NCBI GenBank assembly: GCA_963971425.1
Contig: OZ020522.1
Span: 2,764,168-2,828,167, forward strand
Source of the DNA: Bryoerythrophyllum caledonicum
Lineage: Eukaryota; Streptophyta; Bryopsida; Pottiales; Pottiaceae
Direction: 5' to 3'
DNA length: 64,000 bases
This document shows positions 1 through 64,000 of this stretch, in pieces; position 1 is the first letter of the stretch; the number at the start of each line of letters is the position of its first letter. The notes below the pieces were generated by a model. It saw only the letters and a program-made list of their open reading frames with translations, was not told the DNA's origin and made no database searches. The translations under genes were made by a program, and so were the position numbers.

Positions 1-3000
1 TCAGCAATAGGTAGCTGCTTCATAACTTCAGACCGTCTGTCCTTCCTTATCTTAGCTACAGCTCTTCCAATGACCTCATGAAGCTTCGCAGCATTCCACT
101 GGCTTGATTTCTCCGGAAACTCTTCTTTAAACTTCCTTGTCGCATGGGCAACCGCGTCGCCTAAATCTTGCTGCAAGAATTACAGATAAAGAGTTTGATC
201 AGAAAATGAAAATAATAATAGATGACAGGCAAAGTCAACTGCGAGGAGGCTTATTAAGAACGTTCTCTTACATAACGGAATTTGCGCAATATTTGTTAAT
301 GGAGGCGCAACAAATTAACGTTCATTCGAGTTAATTGAAGAAAATTCTAGAAGTCAAAGAAATTATCTTGGTCCCTGGGGGAGTCCAAATCGGCACCTCT
401 GTGGAGGTTCAACAATTAGTGACTAAAGTAACAGAAGTAATCATTCATGGAACAAAAACCATTTCAGGATGTGCTGATGTCGGCACTACTAGCACGGTGC
501 CTCTTCAAGCGGAAAGTATGCTCGAAGAAGAAGGGGCTGAAGCCGGCACCTCAATCCAAGAGAAGCTAAAATTGTGAGACTGAACGCAAATGGAGATGAA
601 AAATCTATGCTCTACCTGATAGAGCACACCGATTAGTGCATCCACTGTCAATGTGTACCACGTGTGATGATTAGCAGACTTTTGCTTCTTGTCAGCACTC
701 GCTAAGTCTTCCTTCGATACTAGATTCTCAAAAAACGTCAACGGTTGACCTGCGATTCCTTGCATGCGGTACAACTTGTGGACAAGGTTAAGTTTAACAT
801 GCCCAGTTTGATTTCTCCTGCACATCACATAAAAACCAATAAATATCTAGGAAGGCAATGGAAGAGATCTAGACATTGTCGAGTAGCTTACCAATTCACT
901 TGATGGAGCGCCGTTTGAAGCCTTCCCGCCTGACCATCAACAACAAGAATGATGGACTCCACCGCATAGTGCCATGCTGAATCAGTTGCATGATCTCTGT
1001 TGATTATTGGCAACCATGCTGCAAGACGGTGGTTACCGTCCCAAACAAAGAACATCATTCCAGAGAACTGCTTCCAATCTTCCTCCTTCATTAACTCTAC
1101 TTCAAAGGCATTGTTAGCCTCAACCCAAAACGGGCTCCAATTTGATTTTATATGGTCAGAGACAGCCTTGGATCTGCCTTCGTTATCATGCATCGCAATG
1201 TAGAACACTCTTTGGCCATCCATATATCCGGTGCTTACAAACTGAGCCCCAAGTGCCATAACATCGTTTTTTAAATATGGCCTAACAGCAGCTAAGGGAA
1301 GCATTCGGCACAGAGGAATATTTAGCTTCGACTTGTTCCTTGGTTTGAACCGAAGTTCGTCAAGGACAAGACTTGTATTAGCGGACTCCATAACCACCAA
1401 CTTATCCATTTCTCTACTGAGGTCCTCCGCTGACATCTCTAAACCAAAAACACTATTTTCAAGCACGTCATCTTCACCCGGATAGTCGTTGACCAGAACA
1501 ATAATACGATCAGCTGCCTCCCCAACCTCCGAACCTAATAAAATGAGGTCAGACTACAATTCAGAAATTAATCCAAAATTTAAACACCATCATCAGTACT
1601 TGCCATAAAAATATGCGGTTGTGAGCGTTGAGATGATCCACCATAAGCCCCAGCACTTGCCGTCTCCTCTCCCTCCGAAGCTAATCATCAAAATCCAAGC
1701 AAATGAGAACAAATTATTTGCAAATAAGATCAAAATCAGAAGTCATCACGCAAATTCCAACCAAGAAGCTCATGCAATTGAGCGTCACCGATATCCAAAT
1801 CTTCTCGGAGACAATGTCGATTCAAACAGCTTCACCGGAGCCAGGCACTCAGTATCGACAACTCCTCCCGCCGGGGGGCTGCCGACATTGGCAGCTCCGG
1901 AGTGCGGGCACTTTCCTAGCGGGAAGCACCCGCACTCGAGAGCTGCCGATGTCGGTAGCTCCTCGGCAAAGGAGCGGTCGAGACATGGCAAATTGTTAGG
2001 GGGGCAGCTGGACAATCGCAATGCATGCAGCTGTGTTTTATACTCTGCCGCCCCTCTGAACATACCCGGGCCAAGTGCAAGGCTGGTTGATCATAATCCA
2101 GTCCCTTTTATAAACAAATAACATCTCATGTTGAAGATGATCTGTCCTTTGATTAATCAACACATGACCCCTCTTGTAGAGGTGAAATCGTGATATTCTT
2201 TGGTTTTTCAGGTGTTATCAATAACCAGCTCAATGTTGCTGGAGTGTTCACGGAACGTGATCAAGATGTAGGGCCGACTGTTGAGGCATTCAACCCCGAG
2301 AGCAATCAATGGCGCCTGATCTCGTCCATGAAAATCTCCTTGGAGCTCTACGAGTCCGGCGTTCTCGACCACAAGTTTTATGATGTCAACTCCTCCTGTG
2401 AGAATCTGGTCGGGCTTGTTAACGACCTGAATGTTTACGGGTGTACATGCCTATCACAGGTGATGCCTCTCACGAACAGTCCTTGGAAGTTGACATGAAT
2501 ATGTCCAATAACCCTAAAACGTCACAAGGCCACAATATTCTACATGTATGGTGTCGTATTAGAACATAACAAGGTTCACAAATTTATATGACCTCCTTAC
2601 GAAAGATGATAGTTGAATCCTCAATCCGAAGGTGCTACAGATTTTGTACTCTGCGGAGTATAATGCGTCCCTGTCAAGACTGACGTTTCAGGGTTGAAGT
2701 TTGGTTGATAGTAAGGCTTCCTCGTGCGGTCAGGTTGGCAATCCTTGACGGCAACGATAAATAGAAAGCTGTACTCAAGAAGGGGACTCGCACTCTCTGA
2801 AGCAGTAATCAGTAGGGGACTCTTACTCTCCGAAGCTGTACACGAGAACGAGATAACCGTGCCCAAATCTCCTCGGACTAGCCAGGAGCAGTACGCAGCC
2901 AGGCTGTCAGTATCGTCAGCTTCTCCTGCCGAGGGGCTGCCAACATCGGCAGCTTCGGAGTGCGGGTGCTTCCCGCTAGGAAAGTGCCCACACTCTGGAG

Positions 3001-5908
3001 CTGCCGATGTCGGCAGCCCCTCGGCAGGAGCAATTTCACGAGTCATCGAATGCTTGGACTCTAACTATCGAGATTCGAATCGCGAAAACTTGACAATGGA
3101 ACTAGTGCACTTACCCTCCTCGACGTCCTGTCCGCTCGCGTGGGGTTCTCCTTTCCCTGGCTCCTTACTGCGCCGGTCTTTGCGCTCTCCAGTCTCCAGT
3201 CTGTGATGGTAATCGCGTCCTGTAGAATGACATGGGATTTGGGTCAAATTTAAATGCAATGCATTTCAAACTTCTGTAATCGCTCGCGGGCGCAGTAAAC
3301 CCTAGAAGACGAGAATATGCTCTAAGAAGGAAGCAGCGATTAGGAGAACAATAACTCTAATTTTGTCGTGGTGCATTCCCCTAACCCAACCCAGACAATG
3401 GCTTATAATCAGTGATCAATGCGACTCATAGCAGTAAGGATCAGATCTTCAGTATGTGACTAAACTTTAGTAAACCCTAGAAGACGATAATATGCTCAAA
3501 GAAAGTAGCAGCGATTAGGAGAACTTCTGACAAACTGAATGAACAACGGCTCACATCAACAGTAACTCAAATTTCATCGTGGTGCATTCTCCTCACCCAA
3601 CCCAGACAATGACTTATTATCAGTGATCAATGCGACTCATAGTAGTGAGGATAACATATTCAGTTTGGGCCTAAACTTCTCGGCTTTAGGCCCTTAACTT
3701 CTTGAGTTTGGGCCCAAACTTCTTGGGTTTGGGCCCCTATTATCTGGAATTTGGGCATAAATTGTTTGGGCCCCAAGCATCTTCGATCACGGCCTAAACA
3801 TAATTAGTTTGTTGAATGCAGTGAATATCACCGACGCTGAAGGAACACTCAATATCGGCTATTCATCTCTACAGTCTTCTAAGTTCATTGCTTTGCAGCA
3901 ATTCCAAGTTCATACCACGACGCCTTTTAGATTTGCGAAAAATGATAAATGAAAAACCTATGTTACCAAAAAATACAAATTCCAAAGTCTGATCAAGCAA
4001 AGCGGCACAGGAAACCAACAATCAACACGGAAGGAGTGATCTATGAAGTTGGCACCAAACCAGCATCTTGTCAATTCGATCTGTTAAACTCCTCGACGGC
4101 AATGGAGTCAATGATCGTAAGAAGCTAAAAATTTTACACAACTTAACCGATGAGCGCTCAGTGATATTTTCTCAAGCCACCTAAAATAAAGAGGATACAA
4201 CTTGTGATCCCAATATGTGTGGGCACGAGTCAAAACAACAATCTGTTAAGCAATGAGACATCGCTCCTTGAACCTGGTGCTCTAGCGCTCTCTCGCCGCT
4301 ACCAGCGAAGGTTGCGACTCGAGCAGGGGGCTGCCGATGTCGGCAGCCTCCAGGTGTTGGCCCTCTCGCGCTATGAGTGTGTGCCTGGGAGCTGCCGACA
4401 TCGGCAGCCTCCCTGTTGGCGCCGCTACCAGCGAGGGTCGCGACACCAATAGGGGGCTGCCGATGTCGGCAGCCTCCAGGTGTTGGCCCTCTCGCGCTAT
4501 GAGTGTGTGTGCCTGGGAGCTGCCGACATCGGCAGCTCCTTGTTGGCGCCGCTACCAGCGAGGGTCGCGACGCCAATAGGGGGCTGCCGATGTCGGCAGC
4601 CTCCAGGTGTTGGCCCTCTCGCGCTATGAGTGTGTGTGCCTGGGAGCTGCCGACATCGGCAGCTCCCTGTTGGCGCCGCTACCAGCGAGGGTCGCGACGC
4701 CAATAGGGGGCTGCCGATGTCAACAGCCTCCAGGTGTTGGCCCACTCGCGCTATGAGTGTGTGCCTAGGAGCTGCCGACATCGGGAGCTTCCTGTTGGCG
4801 CCGCTACCAGCGAGGGTCGCGACGCCAATAGGGGGCTGCCGATGTCGGCAGCCTCTAGGTGTTGGCCCTCTCGCGCTATGAGTGTGTGTGCCTGGGAGCT
4901 GCCGACATCGGCAACCCCCTGTTGGCACCTCAACCTCTACTTACCCTACTTCCGTGAAGTCAGTCCACTTCGACTATACTGACTCATTTCAATCACCTTG
5001 CAAGCGACAAGTCCACACTCGAGACCTAATCTAAAATCATGACAATGAGATGAGAAGCGACAGAATTTACATACCGTCGGTGATGGCCGGCGAGCTGCCT
5101 CTTAAGTCGGCGCCCTCCATTGCGAAACTATTAGGATCACGTTCTTCTGTATTCACGAGAATACAACTTGAGCATACATAACTACTTATGAGAAATGGAA
5201 CGACTCCTCAATCCTCGGCACCTTAGTTTTGACCAAATCTGGAACCATGACTCTTAGAAATACATAGACAAGAGTTACATACCCTCGATGATGGCCGGCG
5301 AGCTCCCCCCACAATCGGCTTCAACTATCGCCAAACTATGAAGATCTCGTTCTTCTGCGATCACATCAACACAGTTAAAGCAAGCAAAACTATGACGGCC
5401 GCTTAGAGTCAGAAAGCGGATACATCTCTTACGAGGCAGCAGGTCGATCACAGATACTAGCACGAAGGGTAAGAGCGTTGATCTGAAACCCTATGACTTT
5501 ACAGCATTCATCACCGCGACTGGGATACATGGTAATCGAGAACGACAGAATTGTCTGCAGTCATTAGAGACTTTGTGAACTTGCTAGCTGTCAGTTCCTC
5601 AGACCTTGCCCCGCCTCATCGGCGCTGCCGCATTCACCAACACCATCCTCACTTGTACTACCGCTATTGCTCCCTGCGAGACTACCACCTTTTACTATAT
5701 TGCTTTCTAACAATCTCTGAAGCTCAATTGAACTAGCTCCTCCCTCCCCCACTCTGGCCATCCATGTCCCTTCAAACTCAAGTACTTTTGCTGTGTCCCC
5801 GACATTTGCCAATCTATTGCTCGATCTCATCTCCCTTATCTGCCGGGATTGTTTCAGCTGCTTTCTATTCGTAAAGAAAAATGTTTGTTTTCTGCATCTC
5901 TTCGGCAT
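1..5908 (-). CDS. Gene A of E1: ParB/sulfiredoxin-like domain protein, 5' part (3' part outside window)
   Basis: Exons supported by splice signals and by homology to the E4 copy are: exon 1 from an ATG at 5,908 to about 5,680; a duplicated pair of 72-bp exons at 5,354-5,283 and 5,146-5,075; 3,219-3,115; 1,534-892; 817-616; and 170 to beyond base 1. Exon 1 encodes a basic start (MPKRCRKQTFFF) and then DTAKVLEFEG, matching NTARVLSFKKG in E4. The 1,534-892 exon encodes the ParB/sulfiredoxin-like region, with LCRMLPLAAVRP near its middle and FFVWDGNHRLAAW toward its end. The exon junction in the NW codon has the same phase as in E4. No stop is seen in the exons at 1,534-892, 817-616 and 170-1, so this copy may be less decayed than E4. 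The methyltransferase part would lie outside the window. Function is inferred from the E4 copy. Confidence 0.72.
469..484. repeat. Single palindrome GTGCTGATGTCGGCAC in gene A intron
   Basis: This 16-bp near-perfect palindrome lies in the intron between the 817-616 and 170-1 exons and shares the GATGTCGG core with the arrays further along E1. The rest of 171-615 shows nothing else that I can assign. Confidence 0.5.
2180..2500 (+). pseudogene. Captured Kelch-repeat gene fragment
   Basis: A plus-strand open stretch from about 2,190 to 2,498 encodes a Kelch-like blade: INNQLNVAGVF, then VEAFNPESNQWRLISSM, the classic 'vevydp..n.W..+..M' pattern. It continues for about 40 residues and ends without a gene context. 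It sits inside an intron of gene A on the opposite strand, next to a small TTAA element. MULEs are known to pick up host gene pieces (Pack-MULEs), so a captured fragment is the simplest reading. A TTTTTCAG acceptor-like site lies just before GTGTTATCAAT. Confidence 0.55.
2508..2698. mobile_element. Small TTAA-type non-autonomous element
   Basis: The ends form an inverted repeat: ATAACCCTAAAACGTCA at the left and TGACGTTTCAGGGTTGAA at the right. The body from about 2,540 to 2,665 closely matches 13,350-13,510. The ends resemble the TTAA-CCC start of piggyBac-like elements, with the target sites diverged (ATAA and TTGA). Confidence 0.5.
3295..3780. repeat. Tandem duplication of about 175 bp plus short TTGGGCCC repeats
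   Basis: The stretch 3,295-3,453, starting GCAGTAAACCCTAGAAGACG, is repeated with few changes at 3,470-3,663. It is followed at 3,661-3,780 by about five short units around TTTGGGCCCAAACTTCT. No coding signal is seen. From 3,780 to 4,270 I see nothing assignable. Confidence 0.65.
4270..4930. repeat. Array of five ~128-bp units, each with two GCCGATGTCGGC palindromes
   Basis: About five head-to-tail units of 127-128 bp each contain GCTGCCGATGTCGGCAGC and, about 60 bp later, GAGCTGCCGACATCGGCAGC. These are separated by CCTCCAGGTGTTGGCCCTCTC and TGTTGGCGCCGCTACCAGC spacers. The palindromes fall at roughly 60-66-bp spacing (near 4,328, 4,389, 4,455, 4,515, 4,581, 4,645, 4,710, 4,770, 4,836 and 4,898). 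The array lies in the first introns of gene A, downstream of its duplicated exons. Open frames across it are produced by the repeat and are not genes. Confidence 0.9.
5075..5354 (-). other. Tandemly duplicated 72-bp exon in gene A of E1
   Basis: Two exons of exactly 72 bp lie at 5,354-5,283 and 5,146-5,075. Both follow a CAG acceptor, begin AAGAACG, share the peptide core GSSPAI and end at a G|GTATGT donor in the same phase. The exon at 3,219-3,115 has the same boundary phases, so all three can be spliced in frame. No counterpart was found in E4, so this part of the protein is lineage-specific and low-complexity. Confidence 0.6.
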
Positions 5909-6513
5909 AGCCCTTGAATTGCAATTCCCCTTCTCTGTCAAGTTCACCCCTTCATTCTAGTCGAGACCCCCTACTCATTCTAATCCTATATAGCGACTGC
6001 CACCAATAAATCTGACAAGTCCATTAATCTAGCACTTAATACTAATCGCCAAGCCGAAATCCCTGGTAGAACCCACGATCATTGATTCACTGAATTTGTT
6101 ATGCATCGGTCACTGTGCTAACTGAGGTGGTACTTTTATGAAATTAATTGAGTTCGCCGCCATTCTTTTAACTAGTGGATATTTAGGCTGCAACCTGAGA
6201 TGAATATTGACGGCCTCCTTTATAAAATACTTGAATCCACTATATCGCTCTTTAGTGCTCCTACCTGACATGTTTTGAAACACTGTACTCTTCACGGATT
6301 TTATGATTCAACCTCTGATACCACTTTTCAAAGGCGGCATATCTTAATCACTCTACGGAATTGGTTGAACTTCGTCTCCCTTGTACTTTTGGCATTCTCT
6401 AAACTTATATTTACTATATATTCCGTCCTCTCCAAAGATCTTGCCATTTTGCATCCTTAGCCTCATTAGCCTCTGCCTTCTTTTGAATCTCTTCACCAAA
6501 TCTCTTGTATTTC
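5909..6513. promoter_or_regulatory. Head-to-head spacer between gene A and gene B of E1
   Basis: The 605 bp between the gene A ATG (minus) and the gene B ATG (plus) must hold both start regions, because E4 has the same divergent layout with a spacer of about 1,060 bp. The sequence is AT-rich with runs such as TATATTTACTATATA near 6,410. No clear TATA box or operator can be assigned. Confidence 0.45.
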
Positions 6514-9500
6514 ATGGCTGCTTCACATGTTCTGAACTGTGGATCTGTTTTCATTCGGGCTGTTGGTCAAACTTTACCCATTTCTTTTCCTGCTTTAGAA
6601 GATGGGTTTGCTACAGTTTCTGAAAGTCGTTTAACCTCTCGTTTCCATTTCTTGGAACACAGTGTCCATGTTGATATGGATGTTCTTGACCCCGTCACAA
6701 ACGAGGTCAGCCATACAGTTGCTCAAATGCCTTCCTCTGTTGATGGTACAAAGACTTGGCTCCTGGCTCGTGGAAACTATCGAGTCTATGGAACTGTCGA
6801 TAATGCACCTGATATCGGTTCGTCCAACTTGACACCTGGTCGCTGTTCTGCTGCAGCTGATGTGACTCCACTTCTCCGGAAGGTTAAACTAGAGCCACCT
6901 GATGAAGGAGTAGTCGTTCTAAGTGACGATTCCGATAGCGACCGCATCCCTTATGCTACCGTTCCTAGTGCTTCCCTTCTGAACTCGGCAATCCATGTTT
7001 CTCAGTCCACTCCGTCTCAGCGTGTTGGTCCAGCCAATCATAAACCCCCTCTTCCTCCTTCCGATAGTATCGTCCACTATCTTCGACTTCTTAGCAGCCG
7101 ACGTGGATCGAAGTCCGTTTTGTCAAAACTAGATTACAATTCCATTCCAGTTCGTAAGGTTGATTTTCTTCCTCCAGATTTCAATGGAGATGTCATCTTC
7201 GAACTTCCCCCTCTGGGAAAGTATCCTCCTTCCACTAAGGCTCGGCACCTGCACGGAATGGATAAGCGGGATGATGGCCACGCTTGGACGAGAACTGCCA
7301 CTTCGCACATCAAATCTGAGTTTCACCTCACCTTTCGAATGTCTTCATGTCTTGGCGAGCTCAAGTGCGCCAATGATTCCTGTGATTTTATAAAGCGTCC
7401 AAACAGGTCGTCCTCAGTTAATGAAACTGAGTGGGAGGGGAATTCTGCATCACCTTTTGTGCCTGGCTGTGACCCTCCTCTTCATTCTACTGTTGTCTGC
7501 GCTGTGTGTCACGTTCCGCCTACCTGTTATGGCTGTTGCCCGGCAAAGATATATTACGTTCTTGGCGAAAGCCATGTTACCCGAGCTTGTATTCACTTGG
7601 GTTCACATGGTCATGCTGTAAAGAAAGGGAACTACATGGACTCCTCTACAAAGCTTCGTTGCCTCATTGGCGACCAGGTGGAACGAACTCCGGCTAGAAC
7701 AAATTCCTCTATTGTCCTCGAAGCTAGCAAGGAGTTCCTTGGGGAATTACTCTTATGCCCTGATGGCGTGCCACAGAGAACATTGCCTTTGGAAGAACTT
7801 GTCCCCGTCTTGGACAAGTTCAAACTGATGTCCTCTCCTAGCATTCGGAATGAGGTGACAACGTTCCGTTACCTTCGCCGATTCGGTGTCATGGACAGCA
7901 TCACCAAGCTGAGGGGGTCAAGCAACTGGGCCTTCATTCAGGAGAATCGTTTCCCTGGTCAAGGAACAGACTCTGATAAAGTCTTCATTTTCAAGATGGC
8001 GGAGGTTGGTCCTGGGAGTAGAGTTGATTTAGTGAAGCGAATGCAACAAGGGGGTGATTTAGGAGACTCCTGGATGATGTTTGACCACGTCAAACGTGTC
8101 AAATCTTGGACCACAATGGCTTGCCATGTGTACGACTCTACTTACTGTTGGGTCATGACCATTGCAATTTGCGATATGCAGTCCGAAGATGTGGCAGCTC
8201 AAGTAGTGTTCTGGCGGAATCTGAATGCAGTTTGTAGGAGGCATGACCTCCTCAGTCCAAATTTCAAGGGATTCATGGCGGATAGTGCCCAGGCAAACTG
8301 GAATGCTGTTCGAATAATTTATAGTAGTGGCGACCCTGCCGTTCCAATGGAGTCCAGAGAAAGAACTTGCCTCTTTCATTGGGCTCAGTCTCTTGAAAAG
8401 CATACGAAGGCAGATATTCGAAGAGACCTCCAAGATCAGCACCGAAGGCTCTGTAAGCAATATAAAAATTCCATCTCGTTGGAGGTGGCTGAGTGTAGGT
8501 ACCTGGCAATCAGGGCGTGGTGGTTGTCCTCCGTGGCATCAACTGAGGACGGGCTTCCGAGACTAGAGCTCTGGCTATCTTCTGGCATTTCCGATATCGG
8601 CAGTGGGGAGGATTCATGGAGCTTGTAAGTGCACTCATTGTTTCCTTTTCACAATTGCTTGAATTGGTGTCATCCGATAGCCTCACAGACTTTGTCATTG
8701 TAGGCACCCAGAAAGAACTCTAAGTTGCACATTCTGTATTTTACATTTCATATCATTCATTTCAACAATGCCGACGTCGGCTGCTCGTGCTCCACAGCCG
8801 AAGCACCGCAATTTGGTTCTCGCTTGATAGTCGCCCCATCAGTTTTGGGCTTGCCGATATCGGCAGTACGAAAGTTGTGGCCCTCATTACGTTACATATA
8901 ATCATTGAAGTCGCATTGCCAGATTTCCTAACATGTCCCTCCTCTTAGTGAACTCCTATGTTATTTAATTCACGTCTTCATCACTGCATTGCTTTTCTTT
9001 GCTGTTCTAAATGGTCCTTACAATTCAATCTTTCTCTTGAACTATGTTTTGTCCCATTCTCTGCAGAACCTCAGCGAAGCTGAACTAGCTGAAATGCCTT
9101 CCTGTAATTTGGCGGAGTTGGTTCACAACAAATGGTTACAACAGTCCGGAAAACGAGGGAATGATTTGTATGTTGCTGCAGTCGACGACATGGTTCGTGC
9201 TTTCATGCAAGTTGTCGCGTACTATCAATTCCTGAAGGGTGAGAAGCCAGGTACAGGTCCAGGAAAGGAAGAACTCCGGCTCCGTACTGCCCTTCGCACC
9301 GCACAGCGCACAGGAAATGCTAAGGTTCTTCATGCCGCCCTCGCCAACATGCCCGGTGCGGACGAATTCTGCACTCGCAATCCTCACTTGGAAGGAGAAG
9401 AGGAGTTTGTATCCTTGAAGAGAAAAGCTGATCTACCTCCAGGTTCTGAATTTGATTCACATCGCCCGGATAAGATTAGCATCTCCCGCCCCAGAGGTAA

Positions 9501-10515
9501 GGCACGTCGCATTGATGAAGTGATTGTGGATCTCACAGGTGATGATCCCTTGCCATCACCAAATCCCTTTCCGGAAGCTCCTAAAGTACTTTCTTCGTCT
9601 CCACCAAGAACTTCTTCCCGAGTTCCAGGCATGAGAGCTGTACAAGAGTCGGTCTGTGATGAGAATGACTGGCACATCGCAAGGCTTCCTAAAACATCTG
9701 CTAGGAAATGTTTCGCTCTTCAAGCCGGTACAAGGAAGAAGTCTGTGGCATCTATTGTACAGAACAACCGAGCAACAGCTGCCCCTACTTACACTGGCTT
9801 GATGGACAATTACAGAAAGACTAGATTAGAGAGACATCGGTTCTTCTTCTGCAACGACGACATTCATCGTTGTGTTATGGGCACATGGCGCAAGTGGGTT
9901 CAAAGTATGCCACCTCCTCCATAGTTCTGGCCAGTTCAGATGGGCACAAATCTGAGCAGAACAGAGATACTTGCCTTAGAAACTGTTGGGTTTTGTCTCG
10001 TTGAGCGTGAGGTTCTCTCTCCTAGAAAGTTGTTCGGTGAAGGCGTCTCGGTGAACCTGAACGATTACCCTATGCCTCCTAACCCTACAAACCATCCAAC
10101 CAAGCGATACGGAAAAAACATCCGAAGAAACGAAGCTACTCCTACTACTCGTCACCATAACAGCTGCGCCTCTGCTCACTCCATACTGGGAAAACTCTGC
10201 ACGATTCTAATGGTTCCACCTCCAGCCCTTGGTTGCATTGTCACTTTGGAGTCGCGGAACATTTCCACAGTTTCCCGATATTTCGTCACAATTGGTCAAT
10301 TTCCAAGCTGCGACTGCCTCTCTTTCACAGAGATGTCGAAGAAATCGCTTGGCAAACGCGGTTCATGGACTTACTGTAAGCACCTCTACTACATATTCAA
10401 CATTGTGTGTGGTTTAGACCCGGAGGTAGATGTCTTTATTCACGCACCTAGTTTCAGTTGGAATGAAATCAAGCGTATTCTTCAGATTCTACTCCTCAAA
10501 TACTATGCAGTATAG
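6514..10515 (+). pseudogene. Gene B of E1: MULE-type transposase with SWIM zinc finger (slightly broken)
   Basis: Exon 1 runs 6,514-8,624 (donor GTAAGT) and exon 2 runs 9,067-10,515 (acceptor TCTCTGCAG), for about 1,190 residues. The start ATG reads MAASHVLNCG and aligns with the E4 start region. In order: a SUMO-type site VKLEP and the acidic hydrophobic motif VVVLSDDSDSD; a Cys/His cluster (CLGELKCANDSC, VCAVCHVPPTCYGCC, HLGSHGH) resembling the N-terminal zinc fingers of MULE proteins; and an RNase-H core with MMFDHVKRVKSW, FMADSAQANWNAVR and CLFHWAQSLEKHTK. A second acidic motif, VIVDLTGDD, follows. The SWIM finger at about 10,310-10,395 reads CDC then C-K-H about 23 residues later. This copy has one in-frame TAG near 9,922 and a one-base shift near 8,577, where the E4 frame reads FWHF. 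It would cut and join the element's ends in the nucleus. Confidence 0.85.
8760..8865. repeat. Two palindromes in the gene B intron of E1
   Basis: TGCCGACGTCGGC at about 8,768 and TTGCCGATATCGGCAG at about 8,849 lie in the single intron of gene B (8,625-9,066). A further CCGATATCGG lies inside exon 1 at about 8,590. The equivalent E3 intron holds a much larger array of the same motif. Confidence 0.7.
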
Positions 10516-11394
10516 CTACCATTCCCACTCGCTAAGCTTGTAAGAAGACAATCCTTCCATTTAAAAGACGGTGAGACTAAAAGGGCCACCTCCACAGCTT
10601 GAAGTACATCTTGTCTACTCTATCTCTTCACTTGCATGAAAGAAGGGACAGTTACCCTCTGCCGCTTCTAATTTTGCTTGTCCCTAAACCTCGAACGTGG
10701 TTGAATCTCTCACTATTCCACTAACCCCTTGTGACTGTCTATCGTTTTTCGTAGTTCTCTTAAACTTATGAAGCTCCCCCAATATCCTTAAACCGTGTTT
10801 GCTATCCACTTCACCTAAACCAAATCCAACTATCCATCTTCTTATTGACCACTTCGTATAGGACTCCCATGAGACCCTACAACGTTTACTCTAACCGTAT
10901 ATCTTTTGTTATCCATCACTCTCGCCTCAACCTACATATCTCCATCTTCTACTTTGTCTGCCACCAACGTTGTGTCTCTACAGCTCCATAAAACTGGGGA
11001 CCCATCACCGTAAGTACTAGTTCCCCTAAACCAGGAGTCCTACACCCTGATCCCTAACCTGAAAACTACACTACCACATGCCTCTCCTCCTCTCTTCCAC
11101 TGCACTATTTTATACGTTGAACCCATAAACCAAATGCTTCATAGCTACAAATATCCTATCTACCCATTTTTGTTGGACCATAGAATCCACGGCCATAGGT
11201 ACAGGTAGGGAAATATGAACTAAATTATCAAACCCTATAACCTCACGTTTTGAGACCTTTCACCGTCCGGCACGGTCATAGGTCCACCCATTTATTGCGC
11301 CCAAACCTAGGTCACCAAAAACAAAACCCACTAAACTTTTATTTTCTCTTACTTTTTTCAAATTTGAAACAAAATATTTGCGTGCAAGGCTCGC
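10516..11394. other. 3' flank of gene B inside E1; no gene seen
   Basis: This pyrimidine-rich stretch between the gene B stop and the terminal repeats shows no coding signal on either strand and no clear repeat. It should contain the gene B polyadenylation region. Confidence 0.4.
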
Positions 11395-11456: not shown

Positions 11457-11512
11457 AAAGGATATATAGTTGCATTACAATCACCAGCTTGAAAAGTAAC
11501 AACAACTACATC

Positions 11513-49585: not shown

Positions 49586-49629
49586 GGGATACGGACGAAG
49601 CTATTTTGCGTGCCGAGAGCGGTGAGCGG

Positions 49630-51117: not shown

Positions 51118-51166
<49 letters not shown>

Positions 51167-52956: not shown

Positions 52957-53670
52957 CAGTAGAAGCAGACCAATCCAACACAATGTCTCCAACCTTGGTA
53001 GTGGTGTCAATAAAAGCCTTCACAAAATCTTCAGCTTTCTCCCGAGGTCCTCTCCATGGTACACTTCCTCGCATATGTAGCTTCTCAGAAGGCAACATGT
53101 TCCAAACCATGTCTTCTTCTCAATATCACATGTGATGGAGAACTTGGATTGCACAGGAGTGTCCCGCACAAATAGTTGAACCCAAAAACGAGTGCACTAC
53201 AAAAACAAAGTGGGTGGAAGAAGCTTTAATGATAAAAGAAAACCTTCGGAATGAATGAAGCAATAGTAACAATGAAAATTTATTAGATGATAAAAATCAA
53301 TAATATAAAAATGACAAATTACCGTAGACTTTGGATTCCGTGGTGAAGCCAAAGGAAGTTCATTCATTGCCCACCAATCGTGCTCCAAACGAAAGCTATA
53401 AGTCTCTGCACAATCCTCCACTTCTCGAAGAAGGTCGCGATCGTTTGGATGAAACAATAAAAGGACTGCATCATTATGAAGGTACAAATCAACAAACTCA
53501 AATATAGTCTCAACATAATTTGTAGGCCTAATATTCCATGACGGAATTGCCATAGAAGGTGTTGAAATCCCTGGTACACGTAAATTTTCGGGAATGTCTG
53601 CAATAAGCAAATCAATTCCCGTATGTTGACACTTCTCTGAAGAGACACGACGACTCCTCCCTCCACCAAC
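52957..53670 (-). other. Methyltransferase core exons of gene A in E4
   Basis: Exons 10 and 11 carry motif IV and motif X/I; the intron at 52,956-52,868 splits motif I right after SAST. The phase of the exon 11-12-13 joins independently confirms that the VLDWSASTG frame is the coding one. Conserved features are the GD.VLD start of motif I, the Gly of STG, the conserved acidic pair in AFEED, and the hydrophobic strand LLLFHPND after motif IV. DIPE instead of DPPY/W may mean lost catalysis or a family variant; with a single copy this cannot be decided. Confidence 0.72.
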
Positions 53671-56600
53671 CTGAGAATAAAATGAAAAAATATAATTACA
53701 ACAATGCTTTAAAATATTATAAAAATAGAGATTTCTTGTAGTACTAACAACATAGAGATTAACCAAACTTTGAAATATAAGTTACTTACCCTAGCAACAA
53801 AATCATGAAGAGATTGCCATAATGGATGAGGTCCCGAGGGTTGCTCCAAGGAATCCATCAAAGTTGATATTGAGGCATTGTGGATGAATGACTCAGATGG
53901 GGTAGGCATAGGAGGTGTAGAAGAGCCAGATGGAGTTAGACGGTGTTGGCGTCGTTGCCGCACTACATCTCTAGTTGCTTGGATATAGCTTGAACCGGCT
54001 GCATGTGACTCAATCACAGGAGGAGAATATCCTGCAACATCATCTACCGGTGAACTATCGCTAGGTGGAGAAACTGAAGGAGCCACTTTGGCAAGAGCCT
54101 CTGCTACAGCCTTTTCAACAACTACAACTTGCTCAGCTGCAACTTTGGCAGCTAACTCTTTCTCCAGTTTGATCTTTTGCGCCTTTGTTAACCTCTTCTT
54201 CTTTAAATTTGTACCATTTGCAATGGTAAGTAGAGATGATGAAGGTTCAAGGAGAACAACATCATCTTCATTATCTGATTTTTGAGGTAGAAGATCAGCC
54301 ACATCAAGAGAGCTCCAAAGGTCATTTTCCTCATCAGGTGTTTATGAGCCTTGGCACTCCAAATACCAACCTCCTCCACGGAGATGTGATGCAGAAAACC
54401 TATTTTCTTGTTGCTTATCGTAGATGCACATACCGGAACCAGGCTGTGTCCAAGCAGCAAAAAATGTAGGACTATTGTTCTGCCCTAATGCATTCTTTGG
54501 TGTGAGCTCTCGAACAATGTACCTGAAATTGAAACAAATTATATAGCACATAATATAAATGTAATAAAATCAAAATTAAAAGGGAAAATAAATTGCTCAC
54601 CTGTAGAGAGTCCGCTGGACAGCAACCTTAGCGAGAGGACGGTCCTCAAATGAAGTGCTTTTCAAAAATGGAGGCTTTACGCTTGGGTGCAAAAATGATT
54701 GGAATGCCCTGTCCCATAGCAGAATTCGCCATCTATCAACGTACTCAACAGGTTTGAGAATTTCCGTTGATACCTCCAAATTAACAGAAATACATCCATC
54801 TTCGCAAAACTTCTCAAATTCCTTCACAAAACGCGCTTCAAGCTGGAAAATCAAGTATTAAAACATGAGAAAATATTTATTAAGATAGAGTGTACATTGA
54901 ATTCAAGAAAAAAAGTTGTTACCTGTGCCCAGAAAGCTGCCCGACTCAGCCACAAATCGAGGGTACTCTCTTTTACATCTCCATCAGGGAACCAAAAAGA
55001 AGTGCGAAGAAGAGAGCCAGAATTCCACCAGTGCAACCATTTTGCCATGAAGCGAGGCTCCACAACACAAGTGACCACTTTTTATAACTTTTCAATGGTC
55101 ATTTGTGGCTTCTTGAAGTGGCTAAAATGGTAATTGATCTACAAAACAAAAACAATGTTAAATGATACTAAAGGCAAAGTGATTTGAGTTATATAATTTC
55201 TTATAAAAAAAATATAGAATTGAATTAATAATGTCATACCTCTTCAAAAAATGCATCTCTATGCAAGGGTTTGGCAACTGCAAGATACTTCACAAAGTCC
55301 TTCAATTTGATTGCCTTCACCATTTTCTCTGCAGCAGAAGTCATAGCTTGCCAAATTCCTTCAGCTGATTTGTCTTCTTTGGGTGTTTTTTCTTCATACT
55401 CAGCAGCTGCTTCATCAGAAGTCCGTGCAATGTCTTGCTGTATCAAGCATAGAATATTCAACATATATTAGCCATGAAATTGCCAAATAATGAAATTATT
55501 GGATGAAAATGAAGACAATAAAGACAATTACCCGATATAAGAAGGATATAAAAACGTCCACAGTAAGTGGATACCACGACGGTCTAGATTTCTTGACTTT
55601 CACGCAAGTTCTATATTCTTCTGAAGTTAACAAGTCCTTGAAGTCTTCAAGCTTCAAACCACCGTAGTAACGCATGCGGTGAAGCCTAGCGGTAAGACTG
55701 GACTTTACATGATCATTTTGAGTTGACCTACACATAAACAATGATTAATATATAGGTAAATGACAAGTGAAAGCTTCAATCAATAAAATCAATGATAGAA
55801 GTTTTACCAGTTGACGTCGTGCATGGCATTAAGAAGTGACAATACTTTCCCCTTCGGATTAACAACACTGAAGACTGAATAGTGCCAGTGGCGGTCTTCA
55901 AAATGCAAAGTAGAAATATGTCGCCACCATGCTGTATACCGATGGTTTCCATCCCATATAAAAAATATCTTTCCAACAAAAGATGCATATTGTGGATCTG
56001 CCTTCAAAGTTGCCTCAAAGCAATTGTTAATATCACGCCAATGTGAATTCCATGAAGCAATAGTGTCCTCAGTCACATCTGATGTGCACTCCTTGTCATC
56101 ATAAATGGAAACATAGATAGCACGATCTCCTTCAAGGTACCCCCCTTCAAACCTCTTCTCTAAAGTCATGACATCCACTTCTTGAATGGGTCTTACTCTA
56201 GGAAGTGGAACCATACGACATAGTAGTATATATAACCGTTCGCGAGACACGCGCATGGTGTCAAGGATGGAAACAAAATCTGACTTGCTTTGAAATCTCT
56301 TCGCTCGCGCACCAGCAGCTGAATCTCCAAGACCAGTTGGGCATATTGGAACACTCGAATCTTCGTCGTCCATATCATTAACACCATCAATAGTGTCCTA
56401 AATGAATGCACCTAAATAATGTTTTAGAAATTTGTGACACATGATTTAGATAAGAACAATACGATCTAAAGACAACATACCTTTGAAGTCTCTTGAACAT
56501 CAACTCTTGCTTCTCCACTCTCATTTTCACCTTCGGCAGCCATAGCGATTTCAACCTTTAACATCCACAAAGAAGATAGTATGTAGCAAAAATGAACAAG

Positions 56601-56943
56601 ACAAATCCAAAGAAACATATGATTAACAAATATATTGAAAAGACATGATTAAGTCACAATAAACTATCACCTCCTTAAATTGAATATCCTTTGTAGAGGC
56701 TTCGGATCCAAGTGCTTTCATTTCACTGATTTGTATATCACGTTCACATGATTGACTTGGCAACTGCAACTAGAGTGAAACATGAAAACAAAATAATAAG
56801 TCTTGTGAGGATACCGAAAAAATTAAATGCAGAGTAGAACCAACATGCAACTCTTGGATCTGGTCATTGAAAATTTTCGAGACAAACATTCCGAGATAAG
56901 AGAAGTAAAATTCAAGGGTTCATAGAGAGGCCAAATAGTAGAA

Positions 56944-57498
56944 TTCGGATCCGAACTCTTTTTGCCATGCACAAAAAGACCATTCAAGGCCAAGCAAATC
57001 AAGCAAGAAATTTAGCAGAAGTCATATATGAAAACTTCAAAGGTAGCAAAATATGAGTGTTCGGATCCGAAGTCTAGTTGTCATGCACAACTTGGCCTAT
57101 CTAGAGCAATTACATCAATCAAGTAATCTACATCAAATTATTCAGAAAATGTAAAAAAGAAGCAAAAGAAGAGTATTCGGATCCGAACTCTTATTGTCAT
57201 TCACAACTTGGCCTATCCAGACTAATGACATCAACTTCTGTTTGATTCTACCACGATCATAATGACTTCGCTCGAGCAACGCATACCGCAAGCATTCGGA
57301 TCCGTACACTCAACACTCAAGATAAACGGAACACTTAATTGACAGTACTTATTTGCGACCAACTATCCTTACTGCACGTTGACCTCACTGATCGAGTTAC
57401 ACATTGTAAGTATTCGGATCCGAACACTCAGTAGTCAATCCAAATATGAAACGGTCCGCATTTCTAGATCCTCTCTAGAATAAGTGTGCGGATCCGAA
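56944..57498. repeat. Array of TTCGGATCCGAA palindromes in gene A intron 1 of E4
   Basis: Six copies occur at 56,944, 57,061, 57,176, 57,295 (one change), 57,413 and about 57,487. The first five are spaced 115-119 bp apart and the last about 75 bp. Most are preceded by GTAT or CA and followed by CTCTT or CACTC. The sequence between them is only loosely repeated, so the palindrome is better conserved than its unit. The position matches the palindrome array of E1. Confidence 0.85.
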
Positions 57499-57534
57499 CA
57501 CTCAATTGTTAGTTCACTACATTGCAACTAGCTT

Positions 57535-57872
57535 GAGTCACTGCACATCAACCTACCAAGTTAGAACGACTTTAATAAGTCGCATCAAGTATCTTGTGTG
57601 TAAGATCAGAAGTATAATCTCGGCAAGCCAGCCAAATAATAGCTCACAGTTAGCTCATGTTCGAGCTCATTAAACTGTAGACAGACTAATATTACATTAG
57701 CTTTCGTCATTGTACATCAACCTACCAAGTTAGAACGACCTTAATAAGTCGCATCATGTATCTCGTGTGGCAGATCAGAAATATAATCTCGGCAAGCCAG
57801 CCAAACAGACAGCTCACAGACAGCTTATGTTCGAGCTCATTAAATTGTAGAGAGACTAATATTACATGCGCA
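57535..57872. repeat. Tandem duplication of ~170 bp
   Basis: Two units (57,535-57,705 and 57,706-57,872) share CATCAACCTACCAAGTTAG, ATAATCTCGGCAAGCCAGCC and GTTCGAGCTCATTAAA. They lie in gene A intron 1 of E4. Confidence 0.8.
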
Positions 57873-58026
57873 GGTGCATGATCTGTCTGTTTGGCAGGCT
57901 TATAATATATGTGCAGTGCATGGCAGGTGCATGAGCTGGCGCACGCACTAAAAGTACCTGGACCATTTGGATGGGTCCCAATATCTGAAATCTACACCAC
58001 CTGTAAGTGTACTGGCATATCATGCA

Positions 58027-58104
58027 CATGAATGAGTAAGTTTAATTATTGACTGTTTCATGCACATGTATGAAACAGTCAATAATTAAACTTACTCATT
58101 CATG
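58027..58104. repeat. Perfect 35-bp hairpin
   Basis: The arms 58,027-58,061 and 58,070-58,104 are exact inverse complements (CATGAATGAGTAAGTTTAAT onward) with an 8-nt loop GCACATGT. No mismatch suggests recent origin or constraint. It lies in gene A intron 1. Confidence 0.9.
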
Positions 58105-58159
58105 CATGAAACTTAGCCCATGCATGCCCATGCTGGATCACTGTTGTACATTATCAGTG

Positions 58160-58375
58160 ATGTTCCTTAAGCACATACATGCCCATGCATGCCCATACAT
58201 GCCCATACATGTCGAGTAATGTACATCAGCCCATACATGCCCATGCATGCCCATACATGCCCATACATGCCAAGTAATGTACATCAGCCCATACATGTCC
58301 ATGCATGCCCATACATGCCCATACATGCCCATGCATGCCCAGTAATGTACATCAGCCCATACATGCCCATCAACC
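58160..58375. repeat. CATGCCCATACATGCCC repeats
   Basis: Ten-base units CATGCCCATA or CATGCCCATG are grouped into about three higher-order units of about 60 bp, each ending AGTAATGTACATCAGCC. Open frames across it are repeat artefacts. Confidence 0.85.
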
Positions 58376-58551
58376 ATCAAAATTTTATTTTACGTTTGTT
58401 TCTTCACAATATGTAGTCTAAATCAAAATTCTTCGTACAAAAATGAAGAAATGTGAGACCAATCAACTTCATGGCAAATCATCATGTTCAGCAGATAGTA
58501 GTTGATATGATCTAGTGTTGTTGACCCCATAGGACTCTAAACCATAGAGAA

Positions 58552-58760
58552 CAACCAATTTAACCCCTGTATGTCCGTGAGAAGGTCAAACCAAATGACA
58601 CTTCCAAACTCCTGATTTTAGTGCAAGGAAACAAGAACATGTTTAGTCCACTTCTGATCGTTGGATCCCAATTAAAACTTCTAAAGCAACATAACCACAA
58701 AATTTCATTGACTTTGACAGTACAGATTCAAAGATTGTAGTATTTGAAGAAGATTAACAT
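58552..58760 (+). repeat. Fragment related to the left part of the 50.4-kb TTAA element
   Basis: It begins TTTAACCCCTGTATGTCC and shares the phrase around AAAATTT..TTG and ATTGTAGTATTTGAAG with 50,415-50,620. It is truncated or strongly diverged. Confidence 0.45.
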
Positions 58761-59125
58761 GTTCATTTTCCTTCCTTGATAAAGTGGTTTGTCTTCCTCA
58801 ATGATACATGATCATGGAGCAATGGCAATGCGCATACCTCTAGAATGGTCTGTAAGCTCCCATCTTCATCAACTCCACCTTTCTTGAACGATAAGACACG
58901 AGCAGTGTTTCTCAAGTCTTCCTTTGAAACTAGGGCCTTCCGTCTCCCCATCCTTGACTTCCGAAGCTGCTTACTACTTGAAAATCGAAATCTGCACTTC
59001 CTTCTCTTCTTCTTTTCTGCAACTATAAGAGAAGGTGTTTCAAAAACAACTTCTTCAGGCATCTGCAAATGCTCACATTTCATCTCATTCTCCTCTATAT
59101 GCATGAAGAGCCTACTACAACGCAT

Positions 59126-60184
59126 GTTCTTATATCTTCCTCAACTATGGCGTCACAACTGAAACGGTCATAAATTACTTCTAAACTAATTAATTGAGTA
59201 TATGTGGAATAATCCATCATGCACATGTTAGTCTTTACTAACAATAATTAATCCGTCCAAATTGAAATTCAAAATTCAAATTAAGCTATAATCTATTTCG
59301 AATGACTAGTACATTTAGTATTCCATTATAATTGTCTAACTGTCATCCCCTGTCACGCCGTTTAATCTTGCTTAAATTTCATAAAAGATAACTGATGGCT
59401 ACTAGATTTAAAATTTACCTTTTTAATTAGATTATATTTTGTACAATTGGTCACTAATTTTAATTTCCTACTTGCCATCCTAATTAAGTTTGCTCGTGAA
59501 CCTCAACACTACTTCGTTTGTTGTCAGCATTATTGTGCATGCTATTGGACGCCAATGATATTTTTCCTATTTTGATGACCCTCCAAAAACAATCAATTAT
59601 ATTGCCGATTTATTTACTTTTTTGTCACAGTGACGATGCAATTTCTATATCTAAGATTACAAATATAGTTCTTCATTAATTTTCTTTCTTTTCATCCATA
59701 ATAAGATAAAATACAATATCATTCATTTCTTAGCCACTTCATGTTTTGCAGCTTTATTGAAGAATCTAATGAGAATCTTGTGTCAGAAAGTTTAATATAT
59801 TTGGTGTAGGTTTGAATTAGGCGGCATGGTATAAATCTGTATCATGACGAGGCAACCATTCACTAAGCCCCAACAACTCTGCCATGATTAGTGTCCACCT
59901 TGCTGGTGATGACAAGTAATGCCAGCTACCCCATCAAATCTCGAAATAGATTTTTAGAATATGAAGATGTTTCTTGAACCACAAATATCACGTCCAATGA
60001 AAATTGCATCAATTCCCACTGCTTAGAACTTCAAGAATTTATAAAAGTGTCGTCACAACTTCCATAAACCTCTCTGATTTCCACTCCCAACTTTGACGAG
60101 ACTCCTAAACCACTTTCCAGTATCATTTCAGTCTCTTTTCTTTCTTGAAACGCTAGCATTATTGCTTTCTCAGATTCAAGAAGA
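59126..60184. promoter_or_regulatory. Head-to-head spacer between gene A and gene B of E4
   Basis: These 1,059 bp separate the two start codons and should hold both promoters. It is very AT-rich. No palindrome of the TTCGGATCCGAA type lies here, so the array is intronic and not at the promoter itself. Confidence 0.45.
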
Positions 60185-63100
60185 ATGACCACCGAGAACA
60201 TTGGCCTTTCGGAGTCAGTTATTATCCGTGGTACCGGTCCCGGAGTTCCCATTTCATTTGAGCTTGGAGAGGATGGCCTTTCTTCAGTTAGTGGTTGTCG
60301 CTTATCCTCTCGGTTTCAGATCATGGATGGGACCCTCCATATTGACAAGGAGGTATTTGATCCTCTCACAGGAGAGCTTTCTCACACTATTGCTCAAATT
60401 TCGAGTGGTCGTGGCGTAGACGAAGTTTGGATGCTAAAGCCAGGGAAGTATCGGGTATATGGTGTGAAGGAAAGTCGGCAAGGTGTTGCCTCCAATACTC
60501 TTACACCTAGGCAGTCCTCTATCGCAACTGACGTGACACCACTCCTTGCAAAGGTAAAACTTGAGCCCAGTGATAACGCAATCCACGTTTTGAGTGATGA
60601 TTCTGACAATGAGTGTGTACCGTGCACTCCCCATAGTATCATTTCTCCCATCACACCCACAGTTTTTGTAGGCACACCTTCGTATTCTACTCATGTGTCA
60701 TCTTCAAGACCACCACTCCCCCGTGTTATTGTTCCTCAAAAATAGTATAGTTGCATGTCTCAAGAAATTGAGCAGTCGTAGGGGTTCAAAGTCTGCTCTC
60801 AACAAACTCGACTACAATTCAGTTACTGTGGCGGAGGTGGAATTCCTTCCACCTTCATTCAACGGTGATATTATCTACGAACTACCCGTGCTAGGGAAGG
60901 TCCCGACAACTTCAAAGGCTGGTCAACTTCTTGGAATGGATAAGAAGCATGATGGTCATGCTTGGACTCGCACTGTAACATCGCACATAAAGTCTGAGTA
61001 CCATTTGACATTTAGGATGTCAGCCTGCTTGGGTCACCTACGGTGCATGAATAATGGATGCAGTTTTAGAGAGCGTGTTGGCCGACCGTCCATTCAGAAT
61101 GAAACTGAGTGGGAAGGTACCGTTCAATCTCCTTTCATTCCCTTCTGCGATCCACCACATAATTCTACCATTGTTTGCGCAGTCTGTCATGTCCCACCCA
61201 CATTGCATTGAGGCATGCCAAGCTAAGATCTACTATGCTTTGGGAGGGACTCATATGACACGAGTTTGTGTCCACTTAGGATTCCATAGTCATCCAGTAA
61301 AGAAGGGAAATTGTAGGGACTCAGCCGACAAACTTCGGTCCCTCATTGGGGAACAAGTTGAACGGACCCTTGTTGCGACGAACTCGTCCATCATCCTGGA
61401 GGCTTCTAAGGAGTATCTTGGAGGATTACTGCTCTGTCCAGATGGGGTTCCTCAGAAGACGCTAGACATTGAGGAACTAATTCTTGTCCTAGATAAATTC
61501 AAACTAATGACTTCTCCCAATATCCGGAATGAGGTAACTTCATTTAGATACTTGAGGCGCTTTGGTGTCATCGATAGCATCAAAAAGTTAAGAGGATCTA
61601 GCAACTGGGCATTTATTCAAGAGAATCGGTTTCCAGGCCAAGGTGCAGATTTGGACAAAGTCTTCGTATTTAAGATGGTAGAGATTGGGCCTGGGAGTGG
61701 AGTCGACCTCGTCCGACGAATGCAAGGCGGAGGGGATTTGGAGAACTCATGGATGATGTTCGACCACGTGAAACGCGTAAAGGGGTGGACAACTATGGCG
61801 TGCCATGTTTATGACTCCACATACTCCCGAGTTATGACCATAGCAGTATGCGACATGGAGTCTGAAGATGTCGCTACCCAGGAGATGTTCTGGAAAAACC
61901 TCAATGCTGTTGCGAGTAGACACAACATTGCCACTGTTAACTTCAAGGGATTTATGGCGGACAGCGCCCAAGCCAACTGGAACGCTGTTCGAATCATTTA
62001 CGGGTCTGGCGACCCTACTATCCGCATGGAGAACCGCGAAAGGACTTGTCTTTTTCATTGGACGCAGTCCTTGGAGAAGCACACAAAGGCGGACATTCGA
62101 TCAGACCTTCAGGATCAACACCGGCGTCTATGCAAGCAATATAAGAACTCGACATCTATGGAGGAGGCTCAATCCAAGTACCTTGCCATTCGGTCATGGT
62201 GGTTGTCTTTAGGTGCAACCACCGATGAGGGCCTCGTTCGCCTTGACTTATGGCTTGGGTTTTGGCATTTTTGATATCGACAATGGGGCGGTTTTATGGA
62301 TCATGTCAGTCACTCTTACAACCTGCCTACTGTATGAGTGATATTTCCACATCGATGCCCACCCTTTTTCATTCGTTGATGTCTCTCTTATGGTCCAGTG
62401 GAAGTCCCCTATCGAGTTGCTCTGAACTTCATGCAATACTGATGGATGTTATGATCACCTTCTCAAGGGTGCCGCTAGTGACACCCCTTCACGATGTGCC
62501 CTAAAAATATTTCTTCATCATCATCTTTTCTTTCCTCTTTCAACTTAGCCGTCACCTGAATTATGTTTTTTCTCTTGGTCTAACTTGGTGGTTCCAAATA
62601 TAACCCTTATCTCCTTTTGGCAGGTCCTCTCCCAGTCCGAGATGGCAGAGATGCCGTCATGTAACTTAGCCGAAACGGTACACAACAAATGGTTGCAGCA
62701 GTCTGGCAAGAGAGGGAATGACTTATATGTTGCAACTATAGATGACATGGTACGTGCATTTATGCAAGTCGTCAGTTACGATCAATTCTTGAACGGTGAG
62801 AAGGCAGGAACCGGCCCATGCAAAGAGGAGCTTCGACTTAGGGTTGCTCAGCGAACTGCACAACGATCTGGAAATTTGAAGGTCCTTCACGAGGCCCTTG
62901 CTTGCATGCCTGGGGCTGACACTTTCTGCACGTGCGAACCACATTTTGAAGGTGAGGAAGTTTTTGTTTCTCTAAAACGAAAGGCTGACCTTCCCCTAGG
63001 TTCAGAGTTTGACTCTCACCGCCCCGACAAGATTAGCATCTCACTACCAAAACGACGTAGGCTCCACCAATTTGATCTTCCGGTTGTCGATCTGACAACT

Positions 63101-64000
63101 GACTATGAGGCGACGCAGTCCCCTTCTGTTTCACTTGTTCCAGTTTCCGTCCGCACTCTTTCTCCACCATCTTCTTCAAGGGTGCAACACGTGAAGTATG
63201 TTCAGGAATCTGTTTGCGATGAGAAACTATGGCACATTGCTCAGCTTCCGAGGACATCCGCCAAGAAGTGTTTTGCTCTTCAAGCATCAATAATGAAGAA
63301 GTGTGTTGGAAAGATTGTCCAAGACAATCGATCTACCGCTGCCCCAACGTACACAGGCTTGATGGAATCTTATAAGAAGAAAAAGAATGAAAGACATCAA
63401 TTTTTCTTCTGCAATGATGACATTCTTCGTTGTGTGATGGGCACAAAGCGTCCGTGGGTTCTATCAAAACCTGATATACCATTCATTTGGCCAGTGAAAT
63501 TGGGAACCAATCTCAGCAAGTCAAAAATACTAGCTCTTGAGAACGTGGGGTTCCAACTTGCAGAGCATGTTGAGTTGTCACCCAGGAAGCTTTTTACTGA
63601 TACTGCACTGCCTGTGGACTTGGAAAAGTATCCCACACCTGACAATCATTCGACTCATCCTACGAGAAGGTTTGGTAAGAATATCCGACGTAATCCAGAT
63701 GCTCGAGCAATAAAACATCAGAATAGTTGTGCCTCTGCCTTGACTGTGGTTGGAAAGATTTGCAAGATCTTGATGGTGCCGCCACCGGCTCTTGGGTGCA
63801 TTGTCAGTTTGGAGTCAAAGAGCATTTCAAAAGTTTCCACGTACTTGGTGACCATTGATCAATTTCCAAGCTGCAATTGCCCAGCCTTCACGGAGATGTC
63901 CAAAAAGTTTCTAGGAAAACGAGCGCAATGGTCTTACTGTAAGCACATCTACTTCATCTTGAACATTGTCTGTGCATTTGATCCCGAGGCACATGTCTTC
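60185..64000 (+). pseudogene. Gene B of E4: MULE-type transposase with SWIM finger (slightly broken, 3' end outside window)
   Basis: Exon 1 is 60,185-62,304 and exon 2 starts at 62,624 after TTTTGGCAG and runs past the window end. The same landmarks as in E1 appear in order: VKLEP, then VLSDDSDNE, the Cys/His cluster (CLGHLRCMNNGC, VCAVCHVPPT), MMFDHVKRVKGW, FMADSAQANWNAVR, CLFHWTQSLEKHTK, VVDLTTDYE and the SWIM finger CNCPAFTEMSKK to YCKH at about 63,870-63,945. One-base shifts lie near 60,740 and 61,200, and an in-frame TGA near 62,270 replaces an Arg codon of FWHFRYRQWGGFM. Exon 2 is open throughout. Similarity to E1 extends along the whole protein, while the non-coding parts do not align, which points to past selection on the protein. 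Confidence 0.85.

Follow-up and report, generated by a model that had tools for sequence, protein, structure and literature searches.

Elements and their ends

The analyzed window is a 64,000-nt stretch of the moss Bryoerythrophyllum caledonicum (contig C10, positions 2764168-2828167; host genome 437 Mb in 894 contigs). It contains large parts of two transposon copies of about 15 kb, E1 and E4, as well as a remnant, E3. E1 and E4 lie approximately 38 kb apart on the one contig and have the same gene arrangement. Gene B is a predicted transposase of a Mutator-like element (MULE), and gene A, on the opposite strand, is predicted to join a ParB/sulfiredoxin (Srx)-like domain to a permuted N6/N4-methyltransferase-fold domain with a degenerate catalytic motif. 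The elements, their terminal inverted repeats (TIR) and target site duplications (TSD) were located as follows.

1..11451 (no strand): element E1, of which the window contains the right 11,451 bp (15,146 bp in full), defined by sharp boundaries common to copies C1 and C12, TIRs and a TSD
11382..11451 (minus): right TIR of E1, 70 bp shown
11452..11461 (plus): right TSD of E1, CAACTAAAGG, present on both sides of E1
49583..49592 (plus): left TSD of E4, GTTGGGATAC
49593..64000 (no strand): element E4, 15,057 bp in full, with TIRs and a 10-bp TSD

The left end of E1 was found outside the window, at C10:2760473 (3,695 bp further left), and the right end of E4 is located 649 bp past the window edge. 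The window alone could therefore not reveal the element ends. The stretches around the C1 and C12 copies align with E1 up to identical sharp ends on both sides. The element sizes are 15,519 bp (C1), 15,210 bp (C12), 15,146 bp (E1) and 15,057 bp (E4), counted without one base that was assigned to the duplication. In all four copies the ends are inverted repeats (GGGGATTGCTATTTTGCGTGCC... and GGACCAAGCTATTTTGCGTGC...) which have GCTATTTTGCGTGC in common. Perfect 10-bp TSDs (CACTGGGATA, GGTTTGGCCA, CAACTAAAGG and GTTGGGATAC) flank 4 of the 4 complete copies, and this length lies within the 8 to 11 bp characteristic of MULEs, which also have TIRs. Inverted ends with 10-bp duplications, in line with the check for matching ends and duplications of 8-10 bp proposed by an initial annotation of the window, were detected in the moss genome itself.

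Three repeats (11520-11672, 13535-13723 and 51399-51596) were considered as TIRs and rejected, the first two being located outside E1 and the third inside E4. They represent a dispersed repeat with a sharp start near AACCCCTAAAGG and form no end of E1 or E4.

Gene B

The following parts of gene B were identified in E1 and E4.

6505..8628 (plus): first exon of E1 gene B, with the transposase core
8932..10515 (plus): region of the second exon of E1 gene B, including the SWIM-like motif; one in-frame stop at 9922
60149..64000 (plus): gene B of E4, with at least two frame changes; it runs on for at least 72 bp outside the window, into locus L041

Among 7991 scored library proteins, 55 relatives of gene B were found. 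The moss genome itself contains at least 64 matches, many of them single exons; this count is a lower bound, with 36 of 5739 candidates scored. An AlphaFold model based on 56 sequences reached a predicted local distance difference test score (pLDDT) of 78.7. The two best Foldseek matches of this model were both the ISCth4 transposase (E 1.8e-3 with a probability of 1.00, and E 3.5e-3), which we take to belong to the IS256/Mutator group. Many unrelated proteins were present among the best 50 of 1049 rows. In profile searches, PF00872 was matched by 2 of 56 members (best E 0.034) and the IS256 model likewise by 2 of 56 (best E 0.13). The C-terminal motif CxC...CKH, which is SWIM-like, was identified in gene B of P0001, L001, E1 and E4. 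The model points to an RNase H-fold DDE transposase related to IS256/Mutator, in which the third acidic residue was not placed. Together with the TIRs and the 10-bp TSDs, the fold match and the SWIM-like motif agree with the MULE-type transposase assigned by the initial annotation.

No relatives were found in three viral-contig scans, and one gene B was obtained from one genome-contig scan. L001 is a 4.1-kb contig in a cyanobacterial metagenome-assembled genome, and its two long open frames code for a relative of gene B. The contig is probably a eukaryotic contamination of that assembly.

Exon structure and ParB/sulfiredoxin-like half of gene A

Gene A was modeled by hand, resulting in the following features.

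56763-52321 (minus): gene A of E4, 12 hand-placed exons, the first two uncertain
55808..56397 (minus): ParB/Srx-like domain exon of E4 gene A (DGNHR)
52670..53670 (minus): N6/N4-methyltransferase-fold exons 9-11 of E4 gene A, motif IV-like ADIPEN and motif I-like VLDWSASTG
1553-3 (minus): gene A of E1, exons 3-5; the later exons are outside the window, in L038

The E4 model is interrupted by two in-frame TAA codons (55084-55082, 54344-54342), and its exon 10 includes one frame change. For E1, the ParB/Srx-like exon spans 891-1553, exon 4 about 616-813 and exon 5 3-179. The model protein is about 1092 amino acids (aa) long. As a single query, it matched nothing in the protein library at E 0.01, probably because library genes are cut at introns. 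In the C3 copy, the ParB exon is interrupted by an insertion of about 4.3 kb (L042, 933-5201). The 5 kb adjoining the window on its right yielded no gene A exon.

A search with the ParB exon, using two members (E4 and E1), identified 73 relatives among 1075 candidates. An exact DGNHR (Box II arginine motif) is present in 64 of 75 rows, and two rows do not extend as far as the motif. Of 49 PDB rows matched by the structure model (pLDDT 84.7), 44 belong to this superfamily (ParB, Noc, KorB, PadC, SbnI, free serine kinase, sulfiredoxin), with a best E of 0.037. Against a viral library, ParB-like proteins lead the best 50 of 162 matches (best E 1.8e-3), which also include one phage DNA methylase (E 0.02). 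According to the model, the N-terminal domain of gene A has a ParB/Srx-like fold.

The PHROG matches were weak, a family named ParB-like being matched by 3 of 75 members (best E 0.14), NCBIfam and PADLOC resulted in nothing convincing for the exon family and no ParB was found in a PDB sequence search. The Pfam family DndB (PF14072), a bacterial regulator of DNA phosphorothioation (PMC12704722), was weakly matched by 7 of 75 members (best E 0.0011), possibly by chance. A match to eL24 (E 0.008) was taken as chance. Searched against phages, a relative of the exon had one match only, at E 10, so that a phage origin is not demonstrated by sequence.

Methyltransferase-fold half of gene A

Exons 9-11 of the E4 copy, read through with X, reached 27.1 bits against PF01555 (cut-off 26.7; E 5e-6); E4 was the copy scanned. 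Weak sequence matches in the PDB were CcrM (E 0.012), a DpnA-like protein (E 0.016) and an N4C methyltransferase (E 0.045). In addition, 380 phage records matched the methyltransferase exons at E values up to 10, the best being 2e-4 among the rows listed. Annotations exist for 11 of the 15 listed rows, each of them as a methylase or methyltransferase, in one case jointly with an exonuclease. Together with the ParB/Srx-type fold and DGNHR, the PF01555 match corroborates the two-domain architecture given for gene A in the initial annotation.

The catalytic motifs deviate from this family. In six aligned phage enzymes, motif IV reads D[PIL]PY with the tyrosine in 6 of 6, compared to DIPE in E4. 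The other copies have DLKD (E1, C1, C12, C4), DIPD (C3, C11, C2) or DFPD (C7), and the catalytic aromatic residue is thus replaced by D or E in 9 of the 9 copies in which that exon was read. The E4 motif was not taken as a plain loss of DPPY, since phage enzymes also show DIPY and DLPY; only the change of the aromatic residue is telling. Breakage of E4 does not explain the change, because the C1 copy is without a stop in the eight exon pieces 3-6 and 8-11. Furthermore, the first glycine of motif I (GSG or GTG in phage enzymes) is a serine (STG) in E1 and E4, and the phage stretch HPTQKP, HPCEKP or HPTEKP corresponds to GPREK in both copies (GPREKA in E4). As none of the copies read retains the canonical catalytic motif, gene A probably has a function other than DNA methylation.

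Pairing and selection

The head-to-head pair of E1 and E4 recorded in the initial annotation was also found in 7 of 7 further copies (L039, L040, L042, L047-L050), which had been picked mostly for a little-disrupted gene B and not randomly. Gene A is also present at L049, whose gene B falls into a more distant group. At a tenth locus, L019, gene A is partly visible upstream of gene B. The methyltransferase exons could be read in 8 of the 9 copies with gene A opposite gene B.

In the comparison of E1 with E4, exons 3-4 of gene A had a ratio of nonsynonymous to synonymous differences per site (pN/pS) of 0.54 (0.46-0.63) and gene B one of 0.27 (0.24-0.30), with synonymous sites saturated; for shuffled codon pairs it was about 0.95. 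Among C1, C12 and E1, the corresponding ratio of substitution rates (dN/dS) was 0.23-0.24 for gene A and 0.17-0.30 for gene B exon 2. Within gene A it ranged between 0.24 and 0.42 for the ParB exons and between 0.15 and 0.25 for the methyltransferase exons. The inclusion of copies that are already dead would bias these ratios upward. These codon comparisons indicate purifying selection on both genes.

In the gene B tree (57 of 57 rows kept), E1 and E4 are placed close to each other (76% identity); in the gene A tree (72 of 74 rows kept, P0128 not given) they are distant (34%, rank 59 of 71). The gene B of the C3 copy is 81% identical to P0001, the nearest gene B relative of E4, and its gene A is E1-like (65% to E1, 34% to E4). 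This distribution suggests that gene A has been swapped between elements.

Proposed role of gene A and alternative explanations

The reading favored here, with a probability of about 0.6, is a 15-kb MULE family which encodes the gene B transposase and a conserved accessory, gene A, with a pseudo-methyltransferase domain and a nucleoside triphosphate (NTP)-switched DNA-binding role. It builds on the observed ends, pairing, folds and families, selection and motif loss. Gene B would be the SWIM-bearing DDE transposase of the MULE. Gene A would be a standing accessory whose N-terminal ParB/Srx-fold domain of the nucleotide-binding type is followed by a long middle region and, at the C-terminus, by a permuted N6/N4-methyltransferase fold, the latter without the canonical catalytic motif and still under selection. 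The ParB domain may switch DNA binding under the control of NTP, and the methyltransferase fold may bind DNA or a cofactor. Instead of methylating the element, gene A would aid its transposition or counter its silencing. The joint occurrence of genes A and B, the constraint on gene A and its lack of the methylase motif are the reasons for favoring an NTP-controlled DNA-binding accessory role. A more specific scenario, which we consider somewhat less than an even bet, is that the ParB-methyltransferase partner lost methyl transfer before the subfamilies split, bears an acid in place of the catalytic aromatic residue and has been retained as a DNA clamp gated by NTP, or as a cofactor, needed for moving or unsilencing the element. 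If true, the same loss may hold for algal proteins called methylases.

Several observations weigh against this reading. For gene B no Pfam MULE match was obtained (PF10551 is not among the matches listed), and neither the gene B model nor the gene A ParB model had a PDB Foldseek match at E 0.001. The profile check of gene A was positive for PF01555, but no ParB model of Pfam or NCBIfam was above its cut-off for the ParB-exon family, and exons 10-11 of E4 alone scored 26.3 bits, just under the PF01555 cut-off of 26.7. The exon models were made by hand without transcripts. The bootstrap ranges of dN/dS are wide for the methyltransferase exons, extending up to 0.60-0.90, and reach 1.81 in the C1-C12 comparison of the ParB exons. 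The motif loss is read from sequence, and an unusual active site is possible.

The best surviving alternative restricts gene A mainly to anti-silencing. It would be a VANC-like protein recruited by its ParB domain to its own element, opposing 5-methylcytosine of the host, with no part in transposition chemistry; this corresponds to one of the two branches within the favored reading. VANC proteins of the Arabidopsis VANDAL MULEs are reported to counteract silencing sequence-specifically. Moreover, the evolution of gene A is faster than that of gene B (pN/pS 0.54 and 0.27), and the E1-E4 identity is far lower in gene A (34%) than in gene B (76%). A mainly anti-silencing role of this kind is held to be unlikely.

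According to a second, rather improbable alternative, gene A is an active N6A/N4C methyltransferase which marks the DNA of its own element, as the Ectocarpus authors suggest for theirs. The PF01555 match above the cut-off, the purifying selection on the domain and an architecture resembling the phage ParB-N6_N4 fusions, as described in the main text of PMC12704722, are in line with this. On the other hand, motif IV is DLKD, DIPD, DFPD or DIPE in 9 of 9 copies, and the serine in motif I and the GPREK stretch are present in both E1 and E4. Self-marking, as suggested in the initial annotation, is unsupported in that form, since the motif IV aromatic is D or E throughout while the domain stays constrained.

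MULEs often capture genes, and gene A could be such a passenger of some copies, similar to Pack-MULEs. Its presence in 9 of 9 copies (a non-random choice), including the divergent-group copy L049, and its purifying selection make this highly improbable. Finally, the same arrangement of E1 and E4 on one contig would also fit co-duplicated neighbouring host genes outside any transposon, but this is already contradicted by TIRs with four different 10-bp TSDs on three contigs and by the at least 64 gene B matches over the 437-Mb genome.

Comparison with known systems

Accessory proteins with ParB and N4C/N6A methyltransferase domains are already published for DNA transposons, and a MULE as carrier was not found in the papers searched. 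The giant transposon Sola1-1_Ec32 of Ectocarpus carries such a ParB-like protein, and cases from green and red algae are cited along with it (PMC12477816). Like gene A, which is opposite gene B in 9 of 9 copies, it is encoded on the strand opposite the transposase and is of similar length (1104 aa compared to about 1092 aa here). That transposase is of the Sola1 type, in contrast to the Mutator/IS256-like, SWIM-bearing one with a 10-bp TSD described here. The Ectocarpus domain is described as a predicted methyltransferase, whereas the catalytic motif of the moss element is degenerate.

MuDR and VANDAL MULEs are similar in having accessory genes (mudrB, vanB/vanC) beside the transposase and TSDs of 8-11 bp, and Phytophthora MULEs carry a SET open reading frame (PMC6446971). 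These extra frames are different from gene A, and the main text of that source does not contain the word "methyltransferase". SET histone methyltransferases of MuDR families and VANDAL proteins are described as transposon-borne epigenetic factors in PMC12730594. Fusions of ParB and N6_N4 methyltransferase domains are more frequent in phages (PMC12704722) and likewise join a ParB-CTPase fold to PF01555. They are prokaryotic and outside transposons, and the main text describing them contains no word that begins with "transpos" or "plant". Mobile elements with DNA methyltransferases also include Gypsy-Dnmt3 of Klebsormidium and DIRS with Dam-like methylases (PMC5890265). Unlike the element described here, these are retrotransposons, and Dnmt3 is a C5 enzyme reported to have conserved key residues.

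In the open-licence papers searched, no MULE with a ParB-methyltransferase was found. As far as these papers show, a partner gene of this kind is new for MULEs and already known from other transposons. According to the present results, a MULE whose ends are defined carries an accessory gene of the ParB-methyltransferase type, as a conserved and selected part of the element and not as loose cargo. Self-methylation is not to be assumed, with the fold retained and the catalytic motif gone. With many copies in the 437-Mb genome, some undisrupted in the exons read, the question is testable.

Remnants and other features of the window

Further remnants of the family were identified in the window.

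45055..45118 (plus): TIR-like end of E3 on the gene B side, 73-78% identical to the C1 TIRs
45871..47070 (minus): gene B remnant of E3
49395..49496 (plus): weak gene A exon-5-like remnant of E3 (tblastn E 2e-5), its sole gene A match
28805..29023 (minus): lone remnant of the last gene A exon (E 5e-8) with an in-frame stop and no other gene A exon beside it

E3 therefore keeps traces of both genes, as the initial annotation had noted. Since the start of E4 (49593) directly adjoins the E3 remnant, E4 may have landed in E3.

A Gypsy-like retrotransposon is located at 20500-27500 (minus strand). Its gag zinc knuckles lie at 26556 and 26475, its protease motif at 25576 and the YIDD motif of its reverse transcriptase at 22835, and an H2C2 integrase is present. 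It also contains a C5 DNA methyltransferase domain (PF00145, 24206-24700) with PCQG and ENV present, so that two unrelated element families in one window bear DNA-methyltransferase domains. In its make-up it resembles KnitGypsy-Dnmt3 of Klebsormidium (PMC5890265). The open reading frame 43075-43944 had no Pfam match. An inverted repeat pair (13992-15914, plus, and 41599-43544, minus) is 65% identical and has an extreme GC skew of -0.49 and +0.49, respectively. A 25-bp tandem array at 39623-40324 is open in several frames.

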